Source: a virus
Direction: 5' to 3' (one strand)
Length of the DNA stretch: 21,154 nucleotides
Virus record (IMG/VR): IMGVR_UViG_3300042090_002954
Span: 1 to 21,154 of that record
Shown: positions 3,501 to 20,382 of the stretch, one piece after another
How positions within the stretch are numbered: position 1 is the stretch's first letter
Layout: each line of letters starts with the position of its first letter
The notes under the pieces: generated by a model
The model's input: only the letters and a program-made list of their open reading frames with translations
Told to the model about the DNA's origin: nothing
Database searches by the model: none
Program-made: the position numbers and the translations under genes

Positions 3501-4126
3501 CGGACGAACGCCCGGCGCGCGAGCTGGGCCCACGCGTAGATGTGGAGCAGGAAACCCCTGGCGACCGGGATCGCCATCACCGGGTGTTCGACGCCTTCCC
3601 AGGTGATCACGCCGGCGAGATAGCCGTCGACCTCATGGGCGCCGCCGACCTTGCGGATCGGGTCGCCATAGGCGATCGCTGGGGCGGCGCGTCGGTGAGA
3701 CTCCGTCTGAGGGGCAGCGCCTGACTCTTCTTCTATCCTCATGGCGACGCGCACTTTCCGTGCCGCCTCTTCCTTGCTCGGGTCGACGAAGTGGTGTGCG
3801 GCCGCCGCGCGTTCGCGCATGCGAGCGCGGTCGCGGCGGATGGCGTCGAATTGTTCGGCGTCACTTTCGCGCTCGCCGCTCAAGGCTTCGTCGCGCTCGC
3901 GCTCGGCGTCGCGGGCGCGGACGAGCAGGCGGTTGTTGGCCGCCTGAAGGTCGCGATTCTGGCGCTCGAGTTCGGCAACCCGGAATGAGGTCGTCTCGTC
4001 GATCGGCAGGGCGCGGATCGCGGCGGCGCTCACCTGATGAAACTCCATCTCGAAGGCGTCGGGCGTGTTGATCGCGCGTTGGTCGTGCCACTCGGCCGCC
4101 ATTTCGCGCATGTCGTGAGCGTCCAT
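3497..4126 (-). CDS. Coiled-coil phage protein of unknown function
   Basis: This protein has 209 aa. Residues about 50-120 are rich in Glu, Arg, Leu and Ala and form a likely coiled coil (VAELERQNRDLQAANNRLL, then an ERERDEAL stretch). The C-terminal 50 residues contain a more ordered segment, DGYLAGVITWEGVEHPVMAI followed by FLLHIYAWAQLA. The start at 4126 shares one base with the methyltransferase stop (TGATG) and has a very strong AAGGAGG 7 bases upstream, so it can be translated independently. No enzymatic motif is visible. It may be a structural or adaptor protein. Confidence 0.7.
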   Translation of the reverse strand: MDAHDMREMAAEWHDQRAINTPDAFEMEFHQVSAAAIRALPIDETTSFRVAELERQNRDLQAANNRLLVRARDAERERDEALSGERESDAEQFDAIRRDRARMRERAAAAHHFVDPSKEEAARKVRVAMRIEEESGAAPQTESHRRAAPAIAYGDPIRKVGGAHEVDGYLAGVITWEGVEHPVMAIPVARGFLLHIYAWAQLARRAFVR

Positions 4127-5823
4127 CACACGGCCTCCTTGAACAGCGGGCCGTCGTCGACCGCGCGGGCGCGCCGCGGCGCGGCGACCTGGTCGGCGAC
4201 GTAATTGGCGGCGACCAGCGCGGCGGCGACCGGCGGCGAGACGGAATTGCCGCACATGCGGATCTGCGCGCTCTGCGTCAGCGCGGCGCCGTCGGCGCCG
4301 GCGGCGATCTGATAGGAGTCGGGGAAGCCCTGGGCGCGAAACAGCTCGCGGGGCGTCAGCATCCGCATGCCGATGTCGGCGATCTGATAGGTCTCGCCGG
4401 GGATCGTCACCAGGCCGAAGTGCGCATGGCAAGACACCGTGTGCAGCGGCTCGCCGGCGGCTTGGTCGGTGCCGCCCTCGCCGTAATACTTGACCAGGAA
4501 GGCGCGGACGTCGGCGGAATGGCAGCCCTGCGCGGTGACGGTCGGATGCGGCGCGTCGGGCGCGCTGGCGCGGCGGTCGGATCCTTTGAGGCTGAGCAGC
4601 CCGGCCGAAACGACCGCCTGCGTGCAGCCCTTCTGGACGATCGTCGACACCGGCTCGCTCGCCGCGTGGCCGACCATGTCGGTGTTGTGCTGGGCGAGGA
4701 AGGCGGCGACGAGATGGAGATGCGCGCCGCCCGACGTGACGGTGTGGGTCGGCTCGTCGGCGCCGTTGAACGGCTTCTGCGAATTGCGCATCGTCATCAG
4801 GTGCGCCGCGACGACGCCGATCGGCGGCGCGCCGCCGGGCCGCTTGCGAAAGCTGTTGGCGGTCACCGTCGGCGCCGGGTCGTCGAGGTCGGCGCCGACG
4901 CTGTTGGAGTTAAACTTGGTCAAGAACGGCGCGACGACCGCATTCGTGTCCTTGCGCGACGCCGTGACGGCGTGCAGCGGCTCGCTACCGGCGCGGCTCG
5001 CGCCGCCGTGCTGGCCGTAGGTGACGATGAACGGCTCCGCGGCGTCGAGCACGTAGCGCTTCACGCCTTTGGCGATGCGCGCCATGGTCGCGTCGGCGAG
5101 CGGGCGCTTGACGCCGAGCGCGCGGGCCGCGTCGCGGTCGAGGAAGATCGACGGGCAGGGCAGCGACCAGTCGATGATCTCGGCCGCTGTGCGCCACGGC
5201 TTCAGCTTGCCGGATTTGACATCGGCGGACTTCGGATCGCCGTGCGTCGGCTCCGGCCAGACGATCTTGCGCCCGTCGCAGCGGGCGACGAGGAACAGCC
5301 GCTTGCGGATCGTCGGCGCGCCATAGTCGCAGGCGCGAAGCTCGCGATGCTCGACGCGATAGCCGAGGCGCGTCAGCTCGCCGAGCCAACGCTTGAACGT
5401 CTCGCCCTTGCGCTCCGGGCAGGGGCGGTTGTCTTCGGCGAGCGGGCCCCAGGTGCTGAATTCCTCGACGTTCTCGAGGCAGATGACGCGCGGCCTGACC
5501 TGGCGCGCCCAGCGCACGACGACCCACGCGAGGTCGCGAATATTGCGCGCCACCGGCTTGCCGCCCTTGGCCTTGGAGAAGTGCTTGCAGTCCGGCGACG
5601 CCCACAGCAGGCCGACCGGCCGGCCGCCGCACACGGCGAGGGGATCGACCCGCCACACGTTGTGCGGCAGGTGCAGCGTCTCCGGGTGATTGGCGGCGTG
5701 CATCGACAGCGCGACGGCGTCGTGATTGATCGCGACGTCGGGCGCCCGACCGAGCGCCAGCGCGATGCCGAGCGATGCGCCGCCGCCGCCGGCGAAGGAG
5801 TCGACGATGATCTCGGCGGGCAT
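4126..5823 (-). CDS. DNA cytosine-C5 methyltransferase with a repeated target-recognition region
   Basis: This 565-aa enzyme transfers a methyl group from S-adenosylmethionine to cytosine C5. Motif I is DSFAGGGGASLG (8-19), the nucleophile is Cys79 in WASPDCKHFS, motif VI is ENVEEF (117-122), motif VIII is IRKRLFLVA (172-180), motif IX is PRELFRAQGF (491-500) and motif X is GNSVSPPVAAAL (525-536). Between about 263 and 475, where the target-recognition domain normally lies, the chain consists of about six related units of 33-40 residues. Each has a core like EP-x-HTVTA followed by a hydrophobic VVAxFL. Common dcm proteins are shorter. The gene sits after ssb in the leftward operon, with GAGG 8 bases before the ATG. 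No restriction nuclease is visible beside it, so it is likely an orphan enzyme protecting phage DNA. Confidence 0.92.
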   Translation of the reverse strand: MPAEIIVDSFAGGGGASLGIALALGRAPDVAINHDAVALSMHAANHPETLHLPHNVWRVDPLAVCGGRPVGLLWASPDCKHFSKAKGGKPVARNIRDLAWVVVRWARQVRPRVICLENVEEFSTWGPLAEDNRPCPERKGETFKRWLGELTRLGYRVEHRELRACDYGAPTIRKRLFLVARCDGRKIVWPEPTHGDPKSADVKSGKLKPWRTAAEIIDWSLPCPSIFLDRDAARALGVKRPLADATMARIAKGVKRYVLDAAEPFIVTYGQHGGASRAGSEPLHAVTASRKDTNAVVAPFLTKFNSNSVGADLDDPAPTVTANSFRKRPGGAPPIGVVAAHLMTMRNSQKPFNGADEPTHTVTSGGAHLHLVAAFLAQHNTDMVGHAASEPVSTIVQKGCTQAVVSAGLLSLKGSDRRASAPDAPHPTVTAQGCHSADVRAFLVKYYGEGGTDQAAGEPLHTVSCHAHFGLVTIPGETYQIADIGMRMLTPRELFRAQGFPDSYQIAAGADGAALTQSAQIRMCGNSVSPPVAAALVAANYVADQVAAPRRARAVDDGPLFKEAV

Positions 5824-5840
5824 GCCGGCGCCTCGGGCGG

Positions 5841-6305
5841 TCAAAACGGGATGTCGTCGTCGAGATCGCCGCCGGCGGCCGGCCCGCTGGCCGTCGCGCC
5901 GGCGCGCGGCGCCGAGCGGGTTGCGCCGTAGTCGCCTTCGTTCGGCGGCGGGCGGTCGGCCTTGTCGAGCCCCAACAGCGTTCCGCGGAACTGGGCGAGC
6001 ACGATCTCGGTCGTGTACTTGTCGACGCCGGCCTGGTCGGTCCATTTGCGCGTGTGCAGTTCGCCCTCGACGTAGGCCCGCGAGCCCTTCTTGAGATATT
6101 GCTCGGCGAAGGCGACCAGCGGCTCGTTGAAGACGACGACGTTGTGCCACTCGGTGCGCTCCTTGCGCTCGCCGGTGGCCTTGTCTTTCCAGGATTCGGA
6201 CGTCGCGATCGAGAAGGTCGCGACCTTGTTTCCGGAATTGGTGACGGTGACCTTCGGATCCTTGCCGAGGTTGCCGATCAGCATCGCCTTGTTGAGCGCA
6301 GCCAT
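5841..6305 (-). CDS. ssb: Single-stranded DNA-binding protein
   Basis: This 154-aa protein has a normal bacterial-type OB fold. It opens AALNKAMLIGNLGKDP, continues with VATFSIATSESWKDKATGE, then TEWHNVVVFNEPL and GSRAYVEGELHTRKW. A Pro/Gly/Ala-rich tail ends in the acidic tip DLDDDIPF, which in the family binds partner proteins of replication and repair. It would coat single-stranded DNA as a tetramer during phage replication. The ATG has GAGG 7 bases upstream and follows the previous stop by one base. The intact acidic tip suggests it can engage the host's SSB partners as well as phage proteins. Confidence 0.96.
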   Translation of the reverse strand: MAALNKAMLIGNLGKDPKVTVTNSGNKVATFSIATSESWKDKATGERKERTEWHNVVVFNEPLVAFAEQYLKKGSRAYVEGELHTRKWTDQAGVDKYTTEIVLAQFRGTLLGLDKADRPPPNEGDYGATRSAPRAGATASGPAAGGDLDDDIPF

Positions 6306-12850: not shown

Positions 12851-13596
12851 TGGCCAAGCGCAACGGCCTCTGGCACGCCGCAGCGATGGAACTAGCGAAG
12901 CGCTACTCGCCGGCGACCATCACCCTCATCGTCCACGTCAGCGAGCGCCAGGTGCGGCGGCTGCTGGCGGCGAATTCGCGCGGCGGGGCGGCGAGCGAAC
13001 ACAGGGCGCCCGTAGCGCAGGCCTCCGCGCCACTGTTGCGACACAGCGCGCCGTCGACCTCTTGCGAGCCTGTTGTTTCCGAGCCTGACGGGCTGTCAAG
13101 GGGCGAAGCCGGCCTGCGGCCGCGCGCGCAGCGCGCCCTTGACAGCCCATCAGGCTCGGAAGGAGACGTTGGCAAGAGGTCGACGGTGCTCCCCGCCGAA
13201 GCGCCAGACCCCACGGCCGTCGCGCCACGCCGCGCCGAAGCGGTCGCGTTGCTGGCGGATGGTCAATCGCTCGGCGCCGTTCAGCGCCAGCTCGGCTGCA
13301 CGCGGGCCCAGGTCGATCGCATGCGCGACAGCGCGGTGTTGGCCGGCGAGATCGAACCGCCGCCGCCCGATGACGGCGGCGATAAGGCCGCCGCGGCCGC
13401 CAAGCGCCGCTGCGACGCCCATCTCGCCGACCTTGTCGCCGTCTACGGCGCGCCCGGCGAATTCGATAAGGGGCGGCCGCCGAAGGATCGGATCGAACTG
13501 CCGATCGCCGCCGGCCCGGCGCGCCACGTGGCGCACGGCGGCTATAGCGGCTCGGGCTCGTCGAGCCCGGCGGCGGCTTGCGCGGATCTCGGGTGA
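12850..13596 (+). CDS. Two-HTH phage protein with an in-frame palindromic insert
   Basis: This protein has 248 aa. The N-terminal segment LAKRYSPATITLIVHVSERQVRRLL looks like one helix-turn-helix. A second, RAEAVALLADGQSLGAVQRQLGCTRAQVDRMR, lies at about 128-158. Between them, residues about 68-111 are encoded by a 132-bp imperfect palindrome and have no fold-like character. The C-terminal part (CDAHLADLVAVYGAPGEFDKG, then KDRIELPIAAGP) may form a further small domain. The start and stop both share a base with neighbouring genes (TGATG), so the frame is intact across the insert. It is probably a regulator or replication accessory factor; the family was not recognised. Confidence 0.65.
   Translation: MAKRNGLWHAAAMELAKRYSPATITLIVHVSERQVRRLLAANSRGGAASEHRAPVAQASAPLLRHSAPSTSCEPVVSEPDGLSRGEAGLRPRAQRALDSPSGSEGDVGKRSTVLPAEAPDPTAVAPRRAEAVALLADGQSLGAVQRQLGCTRAQVDRMRDSAVLAGEIEPPPPDDGGDKAAAAAKRRCDAHLADLVAVYGAPGEFDKGRPPKDRIELPIAAGPARHVAHGGYSGSGSSSPAAACADLG
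13053..13184. repeat. 132-bp imperfect palindrome inside a coding sequence
   Basis: The outer arms GTCGACCTCTTGC (13053-13065) and its exact inverse (13172-13184) flank inner arms of about 26 bp (13077-13103 and 13136-13161). The inner arms differ by one base substitution and one extra G; they read TTCCGAGCCTGA then GGGCTGTCAAGGG. The loop is GC-rich. The element length is 44 codons, so the host reading frame stays open. It resembles a REP- or MITE-like mobile palindrome inserted in frame. Confidence 0.85.
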
Positions 13597-14741
13597 TGCT
13601 GTCGCCGGCGGCGATTGCCGATCTCAACGCGCATACCGACCTGCGCGGGCTCGCCGAACAGCTCGGCGCGCGGCTGAACAAGCGCGGCGTCGGGACTTGC
13701 CCGCTGTGCGGCGGCGGCAAGACGGCGCAGCGCTTCGAACTCAAGGACCACGAGTCGCGCTGGGTCTGCGCGGTGTGCGACGACGGCGGCGACGCGATCA
13801 AGCTGGTGATGAAGGCGCGCGGGATCGACTTTCCCGCCGCGGTCGACTGGCTGGGCGGCGCGCGACAGATCGACCCGGCTGAGGCGGCGCGGCGCGAGCG
13901 CGAGATCGCAGCGAAGCGCGCGCGACGCGAGGCCGAGGCGGCGCGCTATCGCGAGGCCGAGCGGCGCCGGCTCTACGACATGTGGTCGCGGGCCGAGCCG
14001 GGCGTCGCCTCGGCGGCGCTCAACGCCTATTTCGCCTTGCGCGGCGTCGGCTTCTTCGCCGATCTGCCGCTGCGCTTCGCCGCCGACGTTCCCTATTTCG
14101 ACGGCGAGGTCGAGGATGAGCGCGGCCGCAAGGAACCGCGGCTGATTTATCGCGGCGCGGCGATGCTGGCGCCGATGGTCGACGCGGCGCGCTTCTTCCG
14201 CGGCCTGCACATCACCTGGCTCGATCTTTCGCAGCCCAAAGGCAAGGCGCGGATCTGCGACCCCGACACGGGCGAGAGCCTGCCGGCGAAAAAGATGCGC
14301 GGGTCGAAGGCGGGGACGTTCATTCCGCTGTCGCGCGGCGGCGATCCGAGGCGGCTGCGCGCCGGCGAGGGGATCGAGACGACGCTGACGCTGCGCGACG
14401 CGCTGCGCGACGGCGCGACCTATCAGGCGGCCGGCGACCTCGGCAATCTTGCCGGACGGGCCACGGAAAGCGCGCCCCATTCGACGTTGAAGATGAAAGA
14501 CGGCAAGCGGGCGCTGCGCATCCCCGGCCCGCAACCCGACTTCGATTCGCCGGCCATGCCGGTTTCCGACGCGGTCGACGAGATCCTGTGGGGCGCCGAC
14601 GGCGACTCCGATTCCGAGACGACGCATTGCGCCATGGACCGCGCGGTCGCCCGCCGCGCGCGGCCGGGGCGCGTGCAACGCGTGCTGTGGCCGCCGACGG
14701 GCAAGGATTGGAACGACCTGGCGCGAGGGCTGCCGCGATGA
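13596..14741 (+). CDS. Zinc-finger/Toprim DNA primase
   Basis: This 381-aa phage primase has a zinc finger at about residues 35-61 (CPLCGGGK, then WVCAVCDDGGD), the CHC2-like element that reads template DNA. A charged helical linker follows (about 92-130), then a catalytic Toprim core. The Toprim glutamate lies in GEGIETTLTL (257-266) and the acidic DxD motif in GADGDSD (333-339), with a closing GKDWNDLARG. It would make RNA primers for phage replication. The ATG at 13596 shares one base with the previous stop; a GTG six codons upstream is less likely. It overlaps the next gene by 4 bases. Similar Toprim proteins usually work with a phage helicase, here the DUF5906 protein downstream. Confidence 0.88.
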   Translation: MLSPAAIADLNAHTDLRGLAEQLGARLNKRGVGTCPLCGGGKTAQRFELKDHESRWVCAVCDDGGDAIKLVMKARGIDFPAAVDWLGGARQIDPAEAARREREIAAKRARREAEAARYREAERRRLYDMWSRAEPGVASAALNAYFALRGVGFFADLPLRFAADVPYFDGEVEDERGRKEPRLIYRGAAMLAPMVDAARFFRGLHITWLDLSQPKGKARICDPDTGESLPAKKMRGSKAGTFIPLSRGGDPRRLRAGEGIETTLTLRDALRDGATYQAAGDLGNLAGRATESAPHSTLKMKDGKRALRIPGPQPDFDSPAMPVSDAVDEILWGADGDSDSETTHCAMDRAVARRARPGRVQRVLWPPTGKDWNDLARGLPR

Positions 14742-15379: not shown

Positions 15380-16779
15380 ACGCGCTCGCCGACTATCGCG
15401 GCCTCATCGCCGCCAAGAAGGTCGCCGCGCCGGCGCGCGGGATGGCGCACGTCCCGGCGTTGCACCCGGCGCTGTTCGACCATCAGCGCCACTCGACCGA
15501 ATTCGCCCTGCGAACCGGCTGCGCGGCGCTGTTTCTCGACACCGGACTCGGCAAGTCGTTTTGCGCGCTGGAATGGGGTCGGGCGATCGTCGAGGCGACC
15601 AACAAACCCGTTCTGATGCTGGCCCCACTCGCCGTGTCGCCGCAGCACCAGCGCGAGGCGGAGCGCTTCGCCATCGACGCCAAGGCGATCCGCGACCCGG
15701 GCGCGATGCGCGGCGCGCGGGTCTACGTGACGAACTACGAGCGGCTCGACCGTTTCGACGTCGGCGACTTCGCCGGCGTCATTCTCGATGAATCCAGCAT
15801 CGTCAAGAGCTTCACCGGCGCGACGTCGCGCAAGCTGCGCTCCGCCTTCGCCCGCACGCCGTTTCGCCTCGCCTGCACGGCGACGCCGGCGCCCAACGAC
15901 CATATGGAACTGGGGCAACACAGCGACTTCCTCGGCGTCATGCCGCCGAGCGAGATGCTGTCGCGCTGGTTCATCGCCGATCAGCAGAACATGGGCCGCT
16001 ATCGCGTCAAGGCCGCGGCGCGGCGCGCCTTCTGGGAATGGGTGGCGAGCTGGGCGCGGGCGATCGGCAAACCATCGGATCTCGGATTCTCCGATGACGG
16101 TTTCGTCTTGCCCGAGCTCGTCGTCGAGCATCACGAAGTCTCGGCCGACCGGACGCTGAACGCCGGGGCGGAGAAGGACGGGCAGGGGCTGCTGTTTCGC
16201 GTGCCCGACACGTCGGCGACCTCGATCCACCGCGAAAAGCGGCTGACCGCCGCCGCGCGGGCGGACGTCGTCGCCGCGACCGTCGCCGCGGAACCGCGCG
16301 AACCGTGGATCGTTTGGGTCGACACCGACTATGAAGCCGACGCCGTCATGGCGCGGCTGCCCGGCGACTTCCTCGAGGTTCGGGGATCGATGCCGGCCGA
16401 CGAAAAAGAGGCGAAGCTCGACGGCTTCTCGACCGGCCGCGTCCGCGGCATCGTCACCAAGGCGAGCATCGCCGGCTTCGGCCTCAACTGGCAGCATTGC
16501 GCCCGCCAATGCTTCGCCGGACTGTCGTTCTCCTACGAGAGCTACTACCAGGCGATCCGCCGCTGCTGGCGCTTCGGGCAGAAGCGTGAAGTGCGCGCCC
16601 ATGTGGTGTGCGCCGACACTGAGCGGTCGATCTGGGCGGCGATCGCCCGCAAGGCCGGCGACCACGAAGCGATGAAGCGCGAGATGGTCGCTGCGATGCG
16701 CCGCGCCGCGCTGACCAGCGGCATTCTCGACGACTACCGACCCGATCAGGAGGCGCATTTGCCCGCGTGGCTGGCATGA
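15376..16779 (+). CDS. SNF2-like superfamily 2 helicase/translocase
   Basis: This 467-aa DNA-dependent ATPase has motif I as LDTGLGKSF (54-62), motif II as ILDESSIVKS (136-145, with DESS in place of DEAH), motif III as CTATPAPND (167-175), and a C-terminal motif VI in YYQAIRRCWRFGQKREV. The spacing is that of phage SNF2-type helicases, which are usually shorter than chromatin remodellers. It would move along double-stranded DNA during replication or recombination. The GTG start overlaps the previous stop by 4 bases. It overlaps the methyltransferase gene by 4 bases, so the two may act together. Confidence 0.9.
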   Translation: MNALADYRGLIAAKKVAAPARGMAHVPALHPALFDHQRHSTEFALRTGCAALFLDTGLGKSFCALEWGRAIVEATNKPVLMLAPLAVSPQHQREAERFAIDAKAIRDPGAMRGARVYVTNYERLDRFDVGDFAGVILDESSIVKSFTGATSRKLRSAFARTPFRLACTATPAPNDHMELGQHSDFLGVMPPSEMLSRWFIADQQNMGRYRVKAAARRAFWEWVASWARAIGKPSDLGFSDDGFVLPELVVEHHEVSADRTLNAGAEKDGQGLLFRVPDTSATSIHREKRLTAAARADVVAATVAAEPREPWIVWVDTDYEADAVMARLPGDFLEVRGSMPADEKEAKLDGFSTGRVRGIVTKASIAGFGLNWQHCARQCFAGLSFSYESYYQAIRRCWRFGQKREVRAHVVCADTERSIWAAIARKAGDHEAMKREMVAAMRRAALTSGILDDYRPDQEAHLPAWLA

Positions 16780-17684
16780 AGGTGCTCGATCAGGCCGCAG
16801 GCCGCGACTGGACCTTGTTGAACGCCGACTGCGTCGAGGCGATGGCCGAGATGCCGGCCGCCTGCGTCGACTTCTCGGTCTACTCGCCGCCGTTTTCCTC
16901 GCTCTACATCTATTCGGAATCCGAGCGCGACATGGGCAACGTCGCCAACGACGCTGCGTTTCAGGCCTGCTATCGCGCCGCGGTGCGCGAGAAGTTCCGC
17001 CTGACCAAACCGGGCCGGCTGACGGCGATCCACGTCAAGGACCTCGTCTATTACTCGAACGCCAGCGCGCGCGGCGACCGCGGCCTGCGCGACTTCACCG
17101 GCGACTGCATTCGCACGCATCTCGCCGAGGGGTGGAGCTTTCACACGCGGATCACGATCTGGCGCGATCCGGTCAAGGAGCAGCGCAAGAGCAAGCCGGA
17201 CGGCCTGCTGTTCAAGAACTTCAAGGCCGATGCGGCGCGCTGCCGGGTCGGCATGCCGGAATACATGATCGTCTTCCGCAAGTGGGGCGACGGCATGGAT
17301 GAGGCGACGCCGATCGTCCACGACGAGCGCGAGTTTCCGCTGTCGATCTGGCAGCAGTGGGCCTCGCCGGTGTGGCTGGACACGCGCGAAACCGACGTGC
17401 TCAACGCCAAGATCGCCCGCGACGACGAGGCTGAGAAGCACCTTTGCCCGATGCCGCTCGATCTCAGCGAACGCTCGATCCGGCTGTGGTCGAACCCGGG
17501 CGACGTCGTGCTGTCGCCATTCGCCGGCGTCGGGTCGGAGGGCTGGTCGGCCTTGAAGGCGCAACGGCGCTTCGTCGGGATCGAACTGAAGGACGCCTAT
17601 TTCCGCCAGGCGGCGAAATATCTCGCCGAGGCCGAGGCGTCGGCGAGCGACGGGCTTTTCGGCGCCGCGAGGGCGGCTGAATGA
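16776..17684 (+). CDS. Beta-class DNA methyltransferase (N4-cytosine or N6-adenine)
   Basis: This 302-aa enzyme has circularly permuted motifs: the catalytic SPPF (37-40) comes first and the S-adenosylmethionine loop SPFAGVGSEGW (247-257) near the end, preceded by HLCPMPLDLSERSIRLWSNPGD-like family sequence (222-243). SPPx is more typical of N4-cytosine enzymes, while N6-adenine enzymes favour DPPx, so N4-cytosine is my first choice. The target site cannot be read. The ATG at 16776 overlaps the helicase stop (ATGA); a GTG three codons upstream is the alternative. No partner restriction enzyme is visible, so it is likely an orphan phage enzyme. It is the second DNA methyltransferase in the prophage. 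Confidence 0.9.
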   Translation: MKVLDQAAGRDWTLLNADCVEAMAEMPAACVDFSVYSPPFSSLYIYSESERDMGNVANDAAFQACYRAAVREKFRLTKPGRLTAIHVKDLVYYSNASARGDRGLRDFTGDCIRTHLAEGWSFHTRITIWRDPVKEQRKSKPDGLLFKNFKADAARCRVGMPEYMIVFRKWGDGMDEATPIVHDEREFPLSIWQQWASPVWLDTRETDVLNAKIARDDEAEKHLCPMPLDLSERSIRLWSNPGDVVLSPFAGVGSEGWSALKAQRRFVGIELKDAYFRQAAKYLAEAEASASDGLFGAARAAE

Positions 17685-19201
17685 ACGCCGCGCCCGAATC
17701 CCCCGCGCGCGAAGCCGTGCTGGCGGCGCTCGCCGCTGCGCCGCCGATCGTCGGCGATCTCGGCGACGGCGCGCCTGAACCCACGGACCCGCCTGCCACG
17801 AGCGGCGATTCCGATGCCGCCGTCGAGGCGACGCCCCAGCAGCCGCGCCCGCTCGGCTACGACGTCGAAAGGCTCAATCGCGAATATGCGATGGTGCTGC
17901 TCGGCTCCAAGGCGGTCGTCTATATGGAGCGAGCCGACGCCAAGCTCGACGAACAGAAACGCTTCCTGACCATCGACGCCTTCCGCGCCTGGTTCGCCAA
18001 CACAGCGACCGAGTATTGCGGCGCCGACGGCAAGGTGAAGTCGCATAGCTGGGCGGCGCATTGGATCGCCGATCGGCGACGGCGCTCGTACAAGGGCATC
18101 GAATTCTTTCCCAATCCCGACGGCGCGCCGTCGACGCCGAACTACCTCAACCTGTGGTCGGGCTTCTCTTGCGCGCCCTGCGCCAAGCCGAACGGCTACG
18201 CCGTGTTCCGCGACCATCTGTTGAACAACCTGTGCGCCGGAGACCAAGCGCTCTACGCCTGGGTGTTTGGCTTTTTCGCCCAGATGGTGCAGCGGCCGCG
18301 CGAGCGCATCGGCGTCGCGATGGTGATTCGCGGCCGAATGGGCTCGGGCAAGACCAAGATCGGCGAAGTGATCGGCTCGCTGTTTCCGCGCCACTATTTC
18401 CTCGTCGACGATCCGCGCTACGTCACCGGCCAGTTCAACGCCCATATGGCGTCGTGCCTGCTGTTGCAGGCCGACGAAGCGGTGTGGGCGGGCGACAAGG
18501 CGGCGGAAGGGCGGCTCAAGGGCCTGGTCACCGCGCCGATTCAACAGATCGAGGCCAAGGGCGTCGACCCGGTGCGGCTGACCAATTACGTGCGGCTGCT
18601 GATGACCTCGAACGAGGATTGGGTCGTCCCGGCGGGCAAGGACGAGCGACGTTTCTGCGTGCTCGACGTCGACCCGCGCTGCGCCCAGGATTCCGCCTAT
18701 TTCCGCGAAATGGACGCTGAGTTGGCCGACGGCGGCCGCGAGGCGTTGCTGCATGATCTGTCGACGTTTGACCTGACCCAGGTCGACCTGCGGCAGATCC
18801 CGCGCACCGCGGCGCTGTTCGAACAGAAGGTGCGCTCTTTCCATTCGATCGACGCGTGGTGGTTCGACCGCCTGCAGTCCGGCGAGCCGACGCATGGCCT
18901 CGGCCGCTGGCCGCCCGAGATCGCCAAGGCGGCGCTGGTCGACGACTACGTCAAGCACTCCGAGCGCATCGGTCAGAAGCGCAAGGCGAGCGACACCGAG
19001 CTGGCGATGAAGCTGCGCAAGATCGTGCCGGAGCTCAAAGATCGGGTCGGCTGGATCGACGCTGGGCCGGACGCCACGCGGCGCTGCGCCATGTGGGTGC
19101 TGCCAAGTCTCGACGGTTGCCGCGCCGCCTACGCCGAAAGCCTGCAACAGGACGTCGAATGGCCGCAACCTTTGGGCGAAAGAGCGGCGGAAGACGGCTG
19201 A
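17681..19201 (+). CDS. DUF5906 / SF3-type replicative helicase
   Basis: This 506-aa protein has an AAA+ core of the superfamily 3 or DUF5906 type. Walker A is RGRMGSGKTKIGE (217-229), Walker B is LLQADEAVWAG (261-271), motif C is RLLMTSNEDW (305-314), and an arginine-bearing DERRF follows (321-325). The first 55 residues are Ala/Pro-rich and disordered. Residues about 60-170 form a conserved-looking N-terminal domain (EYAMVLLGSKAVVYME, then NYLNLWSGF). It would unwind DNA at the phage origin with the primase three genes upstream. Start overlaps the methyltransferase stop (ATGA). The 9-bp repeat array begins 13 bases after its stop. Confidence 0.92.
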   Translation: MNAAPESPAREAVLAALAAAPPIVGDLGDGAPEPTDPPATSGDSDAAVEATPQQPRPLGYDVERLNREYAMVLLGSKAVVYMERADAKLDEQKRFLTIDAFRAWFANTATEYCGADGKVKSHSWAAHWIADRRRRSYKGIEFFPNPDGAPSTPNYLNLWSGFSCAPCAKPNGYAVFRDHLLNNLCAGDQALYAWVFGFFAQMVQRPRERIGVAMVIRGRMGSGKTKIGEVIGSLFPRHYFLVDDPRYVTGQFNAHMASCLLLQADEAVWAGDKAAEGRLKGLVTAPIQQIEAKGVDPVRLTNYVRLLMTSNEDWVVPAGKDERRFCVLDVDPRCAQDSAYFREMDAELADGGREALLHDLSTFDLTQVDLRQIPRTAALFEQKVRSFHSIDAWWFDRLQSGEPTHGLGRWPPEIAKAALVDDYVKHSERIGQKRKASDTELAMKLRKIVPELKDRVGWIDAGPDATRRCAMWVLPSLDGCRAAYAESLQQDVEWPQPLGERAAEDG

Positions 19202-19213
19202 AAATGCCGGCGG

Positions 19214-19509
19214 CTGTCGAACCTGTCGAACCTCGCAAAAAGGTTCGACAGTCGCAACGGATTGATTTTGTTGGGTTTGGTGAACCTGTCGAACCTGTCG
19301 AACCTTTTTCCGCCCCGCGCGCGCGGGCGCGCGAAACGGCGAGCGCAACCCGGACGATTTTTCCCGGCGAAACGCCCTCGCCCAGCAAAAGGCAAAAACA
19401 GCGGAAATTGGCAAAAAGGTTCGACAGGTTCGACAGAGCGAGCGGGATCAATGGCTTATCAGTGTTGAACCTCTCAAAAAGGTTCAACAAGGTTCAACAG
19501 GTTCGGCAA
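19214..19509. repeat. Iteron-like array of 9-bp repeats in both orientations
   Basis: CTGTCGAAC occurs in tandem at 19214-19231 and 19286-19303, and its inverse GTTCGACAG at 19243-19251 and in tandem at 19419-19436. A variant family with GTTCAACA follows at 19463-19500, in both orientations. Four copies carry an A-tract, AAAAAGGTTC then G or A then ACA (19235, 19411 and 19474, plus an inverted copy ending near 19310). The 323 bases between the helicase and the next gene contain no other clear gene. Such clusters next to a replication helicase suggest an origin or a regulator-binding array. Confidence 0.75.
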
Positions 19510-19524
19510 AGCAAGGATTGCGCC

Positions 19525-20382
19525 ATGTCAAAGCGGACGATGACGATCGAAGATGCTCTGCGCTGGGTTTATCGGGAGGAGCTGCCGAAGCGCGAATTCG
19601 GCGGCGCGGACGGCTCGTCGTGGTTGGCGACCTATGTCGAGTTGGGGACGCGGATCGACGTCAATGCGTTCGGCGTCGTGCCCTATGCGGTCGGCTCCGA
19701 CGCGCCGCCGCATCCCGATGCGGTCAAGCTGTGGCAGGCGGTGCAAGCCCTCGACGCGCTCGAGATCGAAGCGCCGGAGGGTTGGAACCCGATCGCCGAT
19801 CTCGGCGACCTCGGGCCGCTCGGCGCGGCGGCGGTCGCCAAGGCGTTCGCCGCCGAGACCATCGTCGGCGTCGACGGCAAGCGGCGGTTCAAGGTCAAGC
19901 CGAGCCGGCTGATCGTCCACTTCGCCGTGCTCGGCGATCAGGAGGAATGGCGCGCCGAGCCGACCGTGGTCGCGCCGGTGATGGAAAACGGCAAGGCGAA
20001 ATGGTTTCGCCGCCAGACGGTGTGGGTCGATCGCGGCCGCTATGCAGAACAGAACCTCGGCCACTGGGCGGAGGTCGAGGTCAACGGCTACAACCTGAAG
20101 GCCAAGCGGCCCTATCCGGACGCCTATCGCAAGTACGTCCTCACGCCGGATCCGCACATGGCGATCGTCGCGCGCATGGAGTGGCAGTTGTGGCGCTCGT
20201 CGATCGACCTGCTGGCCGAGGACGTCGAGCTCGAGGCGATCGCGATTCTGCCGAGCGTGTTGCCGCAATGGCCATGGGAATGCGCGCGCGCGACGTCGCG
20301 CGTGTTGCCGTCGCTGGTCGCCGCGCCTGCGCCGACCGCGCCGCTTCGTCGTCGGGGGCGGCGAGTCGCCGTCGCGGCGTGA
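19525..20382 (+). CDS. Phage protein of unknown function
   Basis: This protein has 285 aa. It begins TIEDALRWVYREELPKREFG. The centre contains TPWNPIADLGD-like sequence (GWNPIADLGDLGPLGAAAVA), then a beta-rich block (RLIVHFAVLGDQEEW, KAKWFRRQTVWVD) and WAEVEVNGYNLKAKRPYPDAYR. The end is Pro/Arg-rich and probably unstructured. No catalytic motif was recognised. The ATG at 19525 has AAGGA 8 bases upstream. The same frame is open back to an ATG at 19204 through the repeat array, which would add 107 low-complexity residues (VEPVEP, FDRFDR), but that start lacks a good ribosome binding site. It is the last gene of the rightward early operon. Confidence 0.7.
   Translation: MSKRTMTIEDALRWVYREELPKREFGGADGSSWLATYVELGTRIDVNAFGVVPYAVGSDAPPHPDAVKLWQAVQALDALEIEAPEGWNPIADLGDLGPLGAAAVAKAFAAETIVGVDGKRRFKVKPSRLIVHFAVLGDQEEWRAEPTVVAPVMENGKAKWFRRQTVWVDRGRYAEQNLGHWAEVEVNGYNLKAKRPYPDAYRKYVLTPDPHMAIVARMEWQLWRSSIDLLAEDVELEAIAILPSVLPQWPWECARATSRVLPSLVAAPAPTAPLRRRGRRVAVAA

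Follow-up and report, generated by a model that had tools for sequence, protein, structure and literature searches.

We propose that an array of short iterons directly behind the gene for an SF3 helicase is a phage replication origin, very probably read by the C-terminal winged helix of that same helicase, which would probably act as two face-to-face hexamers. The array was found in a 21-kb IMG/VR virus record (21,154 nucleotides), the whole of which was analyzed and is called the window here. The original prediction, that these repeats are the iterons of a replication origin beside the helicase, is strongly supported by comparison with relatives (place, layout, co-variation, and occurrence on a small plasmid) but not experimentally proven. 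Specifically, the comparison supports the position of the array, its layout, its coupling to the helicase, and the assignment of protein parts to the half-sites that they would read. Direct binding, origin activity, the two hexamers, and the place of melting are inferred in the absence of binding, replication, or read-depth data, all of the evidence being drawn from sequence.

Within 285 bp of the window (19215 to 19499), the motif GGTTCRACA occurs in 10 exact copies, namely, seven of GGTTCGACA, each within CTGTCGAAC or its inverse, and three of GGTTCAACA; counting two degenerate sites, GGTTCACCA and GGTTCGGCA, the array has 12. Across the whole window, 11 9-mers of this type were counted compared to 0.22 expected from dinucleotide shuffling (0 of 100 shuffles reached 11), bearing out the prediction of at least seven exact copies plus variants within 300 bases. 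The array starts 13 bp past the helicase stop (19201), and its sites run in the order of two on the minus strand, one on the plus strand, three on the minus strand, a 113-bp spacer, two on the plus strand, one on the minus strand, and three on the plus strand. This order of two mirrored six-site halves was absent from the original prediction. The left half comprises an outer pair (two copies of GGTTCGACA; 19215 to 19232, minus strand), an inverted iteron (19242 to 19250, plus strand), and an inner triple of one degenerate GGTTCACCA and two exact sites (19278 to 19304, minus strand). The central spacer (19305 to 19417) carries T5 (19305 to 19309) and A5 (19413 to 19417) at its ends. To its right lie an inner pair (19418 to 19435, plus strand), an inverted iteron (GGTTCAACA; 19463 to 19471, minus strand), and the outer iterons (two copies of GGTTCAACA and one of GGTTCGGCA; 19481 to 19508, plus strand); the third site of the usual right inner triple was not recognizable in the window. 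As predicted, A5 or T5 tracts adjoin four sites (19238, 19305 to 19309, 19413 to 19417, and 19476 to 19480), and two opposed pairs are capable of forming hairpins (19214 to 19223 with 19242 to 19251; 19463 to 19471 with 19481 to 19489). No second array was detected in the window, which is possibly a fragment. A lone exact GGTTCGACA outside the array (2342 to 2350), near a small excisionase-like ORF, is probably due to chance.

The gene preceding the array (17681 to 19201, plus strand) encodes the proposed origin initiator, a 506-amino-acid SF3 helicase of the DUF5906 family (Pfam PF19263; E = 7.7 × 10−22) with the Walker A motif GRMGSGKT. In a Foldseek search, its AF2 model matched the helicase of phage NrS-1 (E = 2.5 × 10−12), the nearest solved fold and sequence for the helicase part, and also SaPI5 PriRep1 and D5. 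Residues 374 to 496 were modeled (pLDDT 89) as a helix, a recognition helix, and a two-stranded wing, that is, as a winged-helix DNA-binding domain; the best PDB matches of this C-terminal model were winged-helix proteins, at weak significance (E = 0.025). The AF2 secondary structure and the co-variation described below place the recognition helix at residues 438 to 448 (18992 to 19024, plus strand), with T439 near its start, and the two-stranded beta wing at residues ∼453 to 473 (19037 to 19099, plus strand). Position 456, in the wing, is R or K in almost every relative, but the window helicase has V there, followed by G at 457. A DnaG-type primase (CHC2 zinc finger, DUF7146, and Toprim; 13578 to 14741, plus strand), the likely priming partner, is encoded by a gene separate from that of the helicase. 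Other window genes encode an integrase, a CI-like repressor, a YdaS-like protein, an SNF2/DEAD-type helicase, a DNA methyltransferase, and a neck/tail-completion protein. By eye, FAGGGGAS and ENVEEF motifs make a large ORF on the minus strand (4126 to 6150) resemble a cytosine-C5 DNA methyltransferase; another methyltransferase gene occupies 16767 to 17684. Two other candidate binders of the array were set aside: matches related to the upstream DNA methyltransferase were found in few of 47 relatives, mostly far from the helicase, and the two-HTH protein put forward in the original prediction had no counterpart in any of the 47 relatives examined initially.

Relatives were gathered via the helicase and comprised 47 viral loci, followed by 79 genome loci and 80 further viral loci; these later additions were mostly from Rhizobiales, with Rhodospirillales, Geobacterales, and others also represented. 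For the 141 relatives with distinct C-termini and sufficient downstream DNA, we scanned 700 bp from 60 bp before the helicase stop, with a score of at least 4.3 taken as an array. Arrays were present directly behind the helicase gene in 112 of the 141, compared to 2 of 116 random segments; the score fell under the cutoff in 29 of these 141 closer relatives. Among isolated phage relatives (Pam3, Yuavirus PAE1, Bordetella FP1, Ab19, and others), no array was found after the gene, and array-less relatives such as Yuavirus PAE1 and Bordetella FP1 are 32 to 36% identical. GenBank labels the helicase-primase homolog "integrase" in Pam3, RHph_I65, Bordetella CN1, CN2, FP1, and MW2, and Pseudomonas MP1412, which looks like a propagated misannotation.

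The arrays share a common layout of about 12 sites (<< > <<< ... >>> < >>): an outer pair, an inverted site, an inner triple, a spacer, and the mirror image. These sites were located by an unsupervised finder in which spacing was not imposed and by which weak sites may be missed or shifted. Within runs, 447 site steps are 9 bp; the triple is separated from the inverted site by ∼36 bp, and spacers of relatives span 45 to 140 bp. The distance from the innermost to the inverted site was matched to within 1 bp between the left and right halves in 72% of 75 loci, compared to 33% after shuffling (Spearman 0.62). A 6+6 split was the commonest arrangement (34 of 106 loci) but is no law, since some lineages lack inverted sites or carry additional ones. 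The letters of the repeat vary among phages (AGGTTGGACA, AGGTGGGGCA, AGGTAGGACA, GCTTGGACC, CTAGGACA, ACATTGGAC, GCCAGTGAC, and others), with G9 and C11 the most conserved letters of the aligned site. C at iteron position 8 (AGGTTCGACA) was seen in the window alone among the loci of the first set. A DNA similarity search of phage records with the array returned no match, as expected where letters are not conserved. Repeat conservation in relatives, proposed originally as a check, was thus borne out for place and layout but not for the letters themselves. The idea that two sequence variants reflect two binding activities was not sustained, given that the variants differ by one base and that other arrays have similar internal wobble.

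The spacer was not AT-rich overall (mean of 39% AT compared to 37% for the loci). An alternating CG run of at least 8 was present in 64% of 105 spacers but in only 3% of random segments of the same length from the same loci. This tract sits 0 to 30 bp after the left inner triple, on one side of an otherwise mirrored array; in the window it occupies 19316 to 19333. Toward their right ends, spacers tend to be AT-rich and pyrimidine-rich, and many loci (for example, L006, L043, and L373) have a recurrent pyrimidine block there, in forms such as CCCGCTCTCGCGG, TACCCCTTTGG..CCTGTTCTC, and CTCTAACCCTCAAAAA, that is possibly a priming or melting signal. The function of the CG-tract asymmetry is unknown, and both Z-DNA propensity and fork direction are guesses.

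We compared the iteron letters with the proteins encoded nearby, controlling for overall relatedness through the ATPase part of the helicase. Given the ATPase, the winged-helix region (residues 415 to 482) tracked the iteron (partial r of 0.29; permutation P = 0.002). No tracking was detected for the ATPase given the winged helix (r = 0.005), for the N-terminal part of the helicase (0.003), for the primase in loci having one (r = 0.009), or for the next gene (r = −0.01, with the winged helix reaching 0.46 over the identical set of loci). We then divided the site into a left half (positions 3 to 6) and a right half (positions 8 to 12), with the limits of helix and wing fixed from AF2. For the left half, the association was with the recognition helix (0.37; P = 0.003) rather than with the wing (0.03; P = 0.14); for the right half, it was with the wing (0.24; P = 0.003) rather than with the helix (−0.07). 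The strongest single column was residue 439: G stood at position 5 in 50 of 51 loci with T439 compared to 5 of 50 loci with another residue (P = 8 × 10−22). Mantel-type permutation P values ignore tree structure, a concern partly answered by tree-based analysis and by pairs from the same genome. When a tree was built from the remainder of the protein, the T439/G5 association was upheld by 8.1 independent pairs and contradicted by 0 (P = 0.008). Three rules (T439 with G5, P457 with C12, and K456 with G10) were fixed before 25 new loci were fetched. In these held-out loci, the T439 rule held (G5 in 7 of 7 with T and 4 of 17 without; P = 0.001). However, the P457 (0 of 3) and K456 (0 of 7) rules, though strong in the first set, failed in these distant loci; they are therefore valid at most in the lineages of the first set, and our claims are limited to the T439 rule and the half-site split.

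In each of two genomes (G001 and G058), two prophages of this kind are present whose helicases are almost the same in their ATPase parts. In the G001 pair (L371/L372), half of the recognition-helix positions differ, against 14% of those in the wing; the iterons of the two share the right half AGGACA, but their left halves read AGGT in L371 and ACTT in L372 (site type ACTTAGGACA). In the G058 pair (L373/L374), the wings diverge at 32% of positions and the helices hardly at all; here it is the right half of the iteron that is altered, from GGACA to TG(A/C)CA, with AGGTT retained on the left. Both pairs match the half-site split exactly. In a third genome, both prophages (L375/L376) carry one and the same iteron (AGGTGGGACA), so that two of the three same-genome pairs differ. 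Two prophages can therefore coreside without differing iterons. Strict incompatibility between residents is thereby made less likely as the driver of iteron change, although we leave this question open. The iteron letters and the DNA-reading domain of the helicase thus vary together, suggesting that origin and reader coevolve; that the coupling reflects direct binding is an inference from co-variation, for which we have no binding data.

The helicase-array cassette also occurs on plasmids. A 9.7-kb circular Roseomonas plasmid (NZ_CP024585; L216) has a DUF5906 protein as its sole replication-like gene, with a ACCCTGGAC array in both orientations directly after it. On the Vibrio plasmid pMP1 (L220), repeats follow the DUF5906 gene (score of 6.4), and a stronger repeat region lies elsewhere on the plasmid; on pMNOD07 (L219), short GTGCAG-type repeats were seen by eye, under the score cutoff. 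We regard all three as candidate natural minimal replicons of the helicase-array kind. Their true origins are inferred, and they support the idea that helicase plus array makes a replicon only indirectly.

These data bear on several other explanations of the array. The helicase or another phage protein might bind it mainly as an operator, repressing or timing downstream genes, while replication starts elsewhere. The array does lie between genes of one direction, and the initiators of iteron replicons often self-regulate as well; nevertheless, it follows the helicase gene rather than preceding it, and its two-sided, distance-matched layout would be unusual for an operator. In addition, the gene downstream (19525 to 20382, in frame; PHROG 9306, function unknown) is not constant, 27 of the 104 iteron loci having a homolog of it, and shows no co-variation with the iteron letters, leaving this explanation only a small chance of being correct. 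Slighter still is the chance that the sites serve host or copy number control only, titrating the helicase with the true origin elsewhere. Phage P4 offers a precedent in having an ori plus a separate iteron region, crr, and mirrored halves could mediate the pairing of two DNA molecules. Against this, the window holds a single array plus one isolated GGTTCGACA at 2342, and the SaPI/PICI counterpart in the equivalent position is a functional origin (PMC6092414).

That terminase binds the repeats at a packaging (cos/pac) site seems highly improbable: while terminase and portal genes lie ∼2 to 5 kb downstream in several relatives, the array keeps beside the helicase and not the terminase, its letters co-vary with the helicase domain (helix and wing separately), and it is found on small plasmids too. 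We see virtually no prospect that the repeats encode a repetitive peptide, a role that the original prediction had kept in view. As it had noted, the frame is open through the array in the window (VEPVEP and FDRFDR, within the mechanical ORF from 18856 to 20382), but 66 of 105 relatives lack any frame open across the array. Moreover, the letters differ, and site spacings are often not divisible by three (10, 11, 28, and 37 occur besides 9), yet the sites retain their order and orientation; it is thus the DNA layout and not the peptide that is conserved.

The reading of the array as an origin finds its closest parallel in the origins of SaPI/PICI satellites. There, the gene of a self-loading initiator helicase, Rep, is followed at once by an array in which a spacer separates two sets of short iterons; the C-terminal domain of Rep binds these iterons, and it is believed to do so as two hexamers of the protein (PMC6092414, PMC7581432). 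Likewise, the array in the window follows the helicase stop by 13 bp (112 of 141 relatives have theirs in the equivalent place), two iteron sets surround a central region, and the AF2 model of the helicase matches SaPI5 PriRep1. Strong co-variation of the C-terminal domain with the iterons bears on the criterion of binding by Rep, without being a measurement of binding. The differences are that the SaPI/PICI center is AT-rich, whereas the present spacers (39% compared to 37% AT) lean to AT only in their right part and carry CG repeats in their left; that the satellites lack virion genes of their own, whereas the carriers here are tailed phages, in which terminase and/or portal genes lie downstream of the array in five checked relatives (L006, L016, L031, L043, and L049) and the window encodes a neck protein; that the primase is of the AEP type there and the DnaG type here; and that the present arrays have a conserved site order, an inverted site per half, and very diverse iterons with a partly readable code. 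By analogy, then, these arrays appear to work like a PICI origin, yet they are not classed as one because of their tailed-phage carriers, DnaG-type primase, and lack of a clear AT-rich center.

Cch2 of SCCmec, a related helicase, likewise uses its C-terminal domain to bind direct repeats that follow its gene, at a putative origin, and it requires these repeats for unwinding (PMC7581432). Its iterons are, however, three 5-nucleotide AAGTG repeats, and the 6+6 mirror layout is not described in that work (PMC7581432). The helicase domain of the NrS-1 primase-polymerase, as noted above, is nearest to the helicase part but is fused to an archaeo-eukaryotic Prim/Pol; no discussion of iterons for NrS-1 was found in the papers retrieved. 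The alpha protein of phage P4 reportedly (work by Yeo in 2002, cited in PMC4234260) pairs an SF3 helicase with a winged-helix domain at its C terminus that binds the origin, and its replicon has short iterons, as proposed here. In P4, however, primase and helicase form one protein with two cis regions, whereas the window has separate genes and one array was found. Lambdoid phages likewise have phage-specific pairs of iterons and initiators, but the O protein is not a helicase, recruits DnaB, and has its iterons inside the O gene, whereas the window array follows a helicase gene. Plasmid origins of the RepE/pi type differ in having direct repeats of 17 to 22 bp and a Rep_3-type initiator, compared to 9- to 10-bp sites in both orientations and an SF3 helicase here.

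In the mechanism that we envisage, the winged helix of each helicase subunit would bind one iteron, with the recognition helix touching the AGGT side of the site and the wing touching the (G/C)GACA side. The roughly six sites on each side of the spacer would gather six subunits, giving one hexamer per side; the two face-to-face hexamers would open the spacer and then unwind outward, and the separately encoded DnaG-type primase would prime. Weighing against this reading are the incomplete right inner triple of the window, the absence of the usual R or K at 456 from its wing, spacers without overall AT richness, the failure of the P457 and K456 rules, and the relatives in which no array was found or none reached the cutoff. 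We also entertain, with more doubt than confidence, an extension in which a fixed 6+6 mirror scaffold loads the two hexamers, while the iteron "word" is rewritten in each lineage via separable changes in helix (left) and wing (right), giving many orthogonal replicons, and the one-sided, Z-DNA-prone CG tract sets the place of melting or the direction of the first fork. No description of such arrays or of a similar phage origin was found in the literature (open-access papers; most subscription papers fell outside the search). If correct, the origin proposed here would supply a mechanism and an origin for DUF5906, a large family of phage helicases so far named only as a "family of unknown function." The more than 100 initiator-origin pairs, with one layout and changing letters, amount to a natural library in which the co-change of origin and reader without loss of function becomes directly testable. 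The construction of sets of noninterfering plasmid replicons for Alphaproteobacteria would become testable as well.
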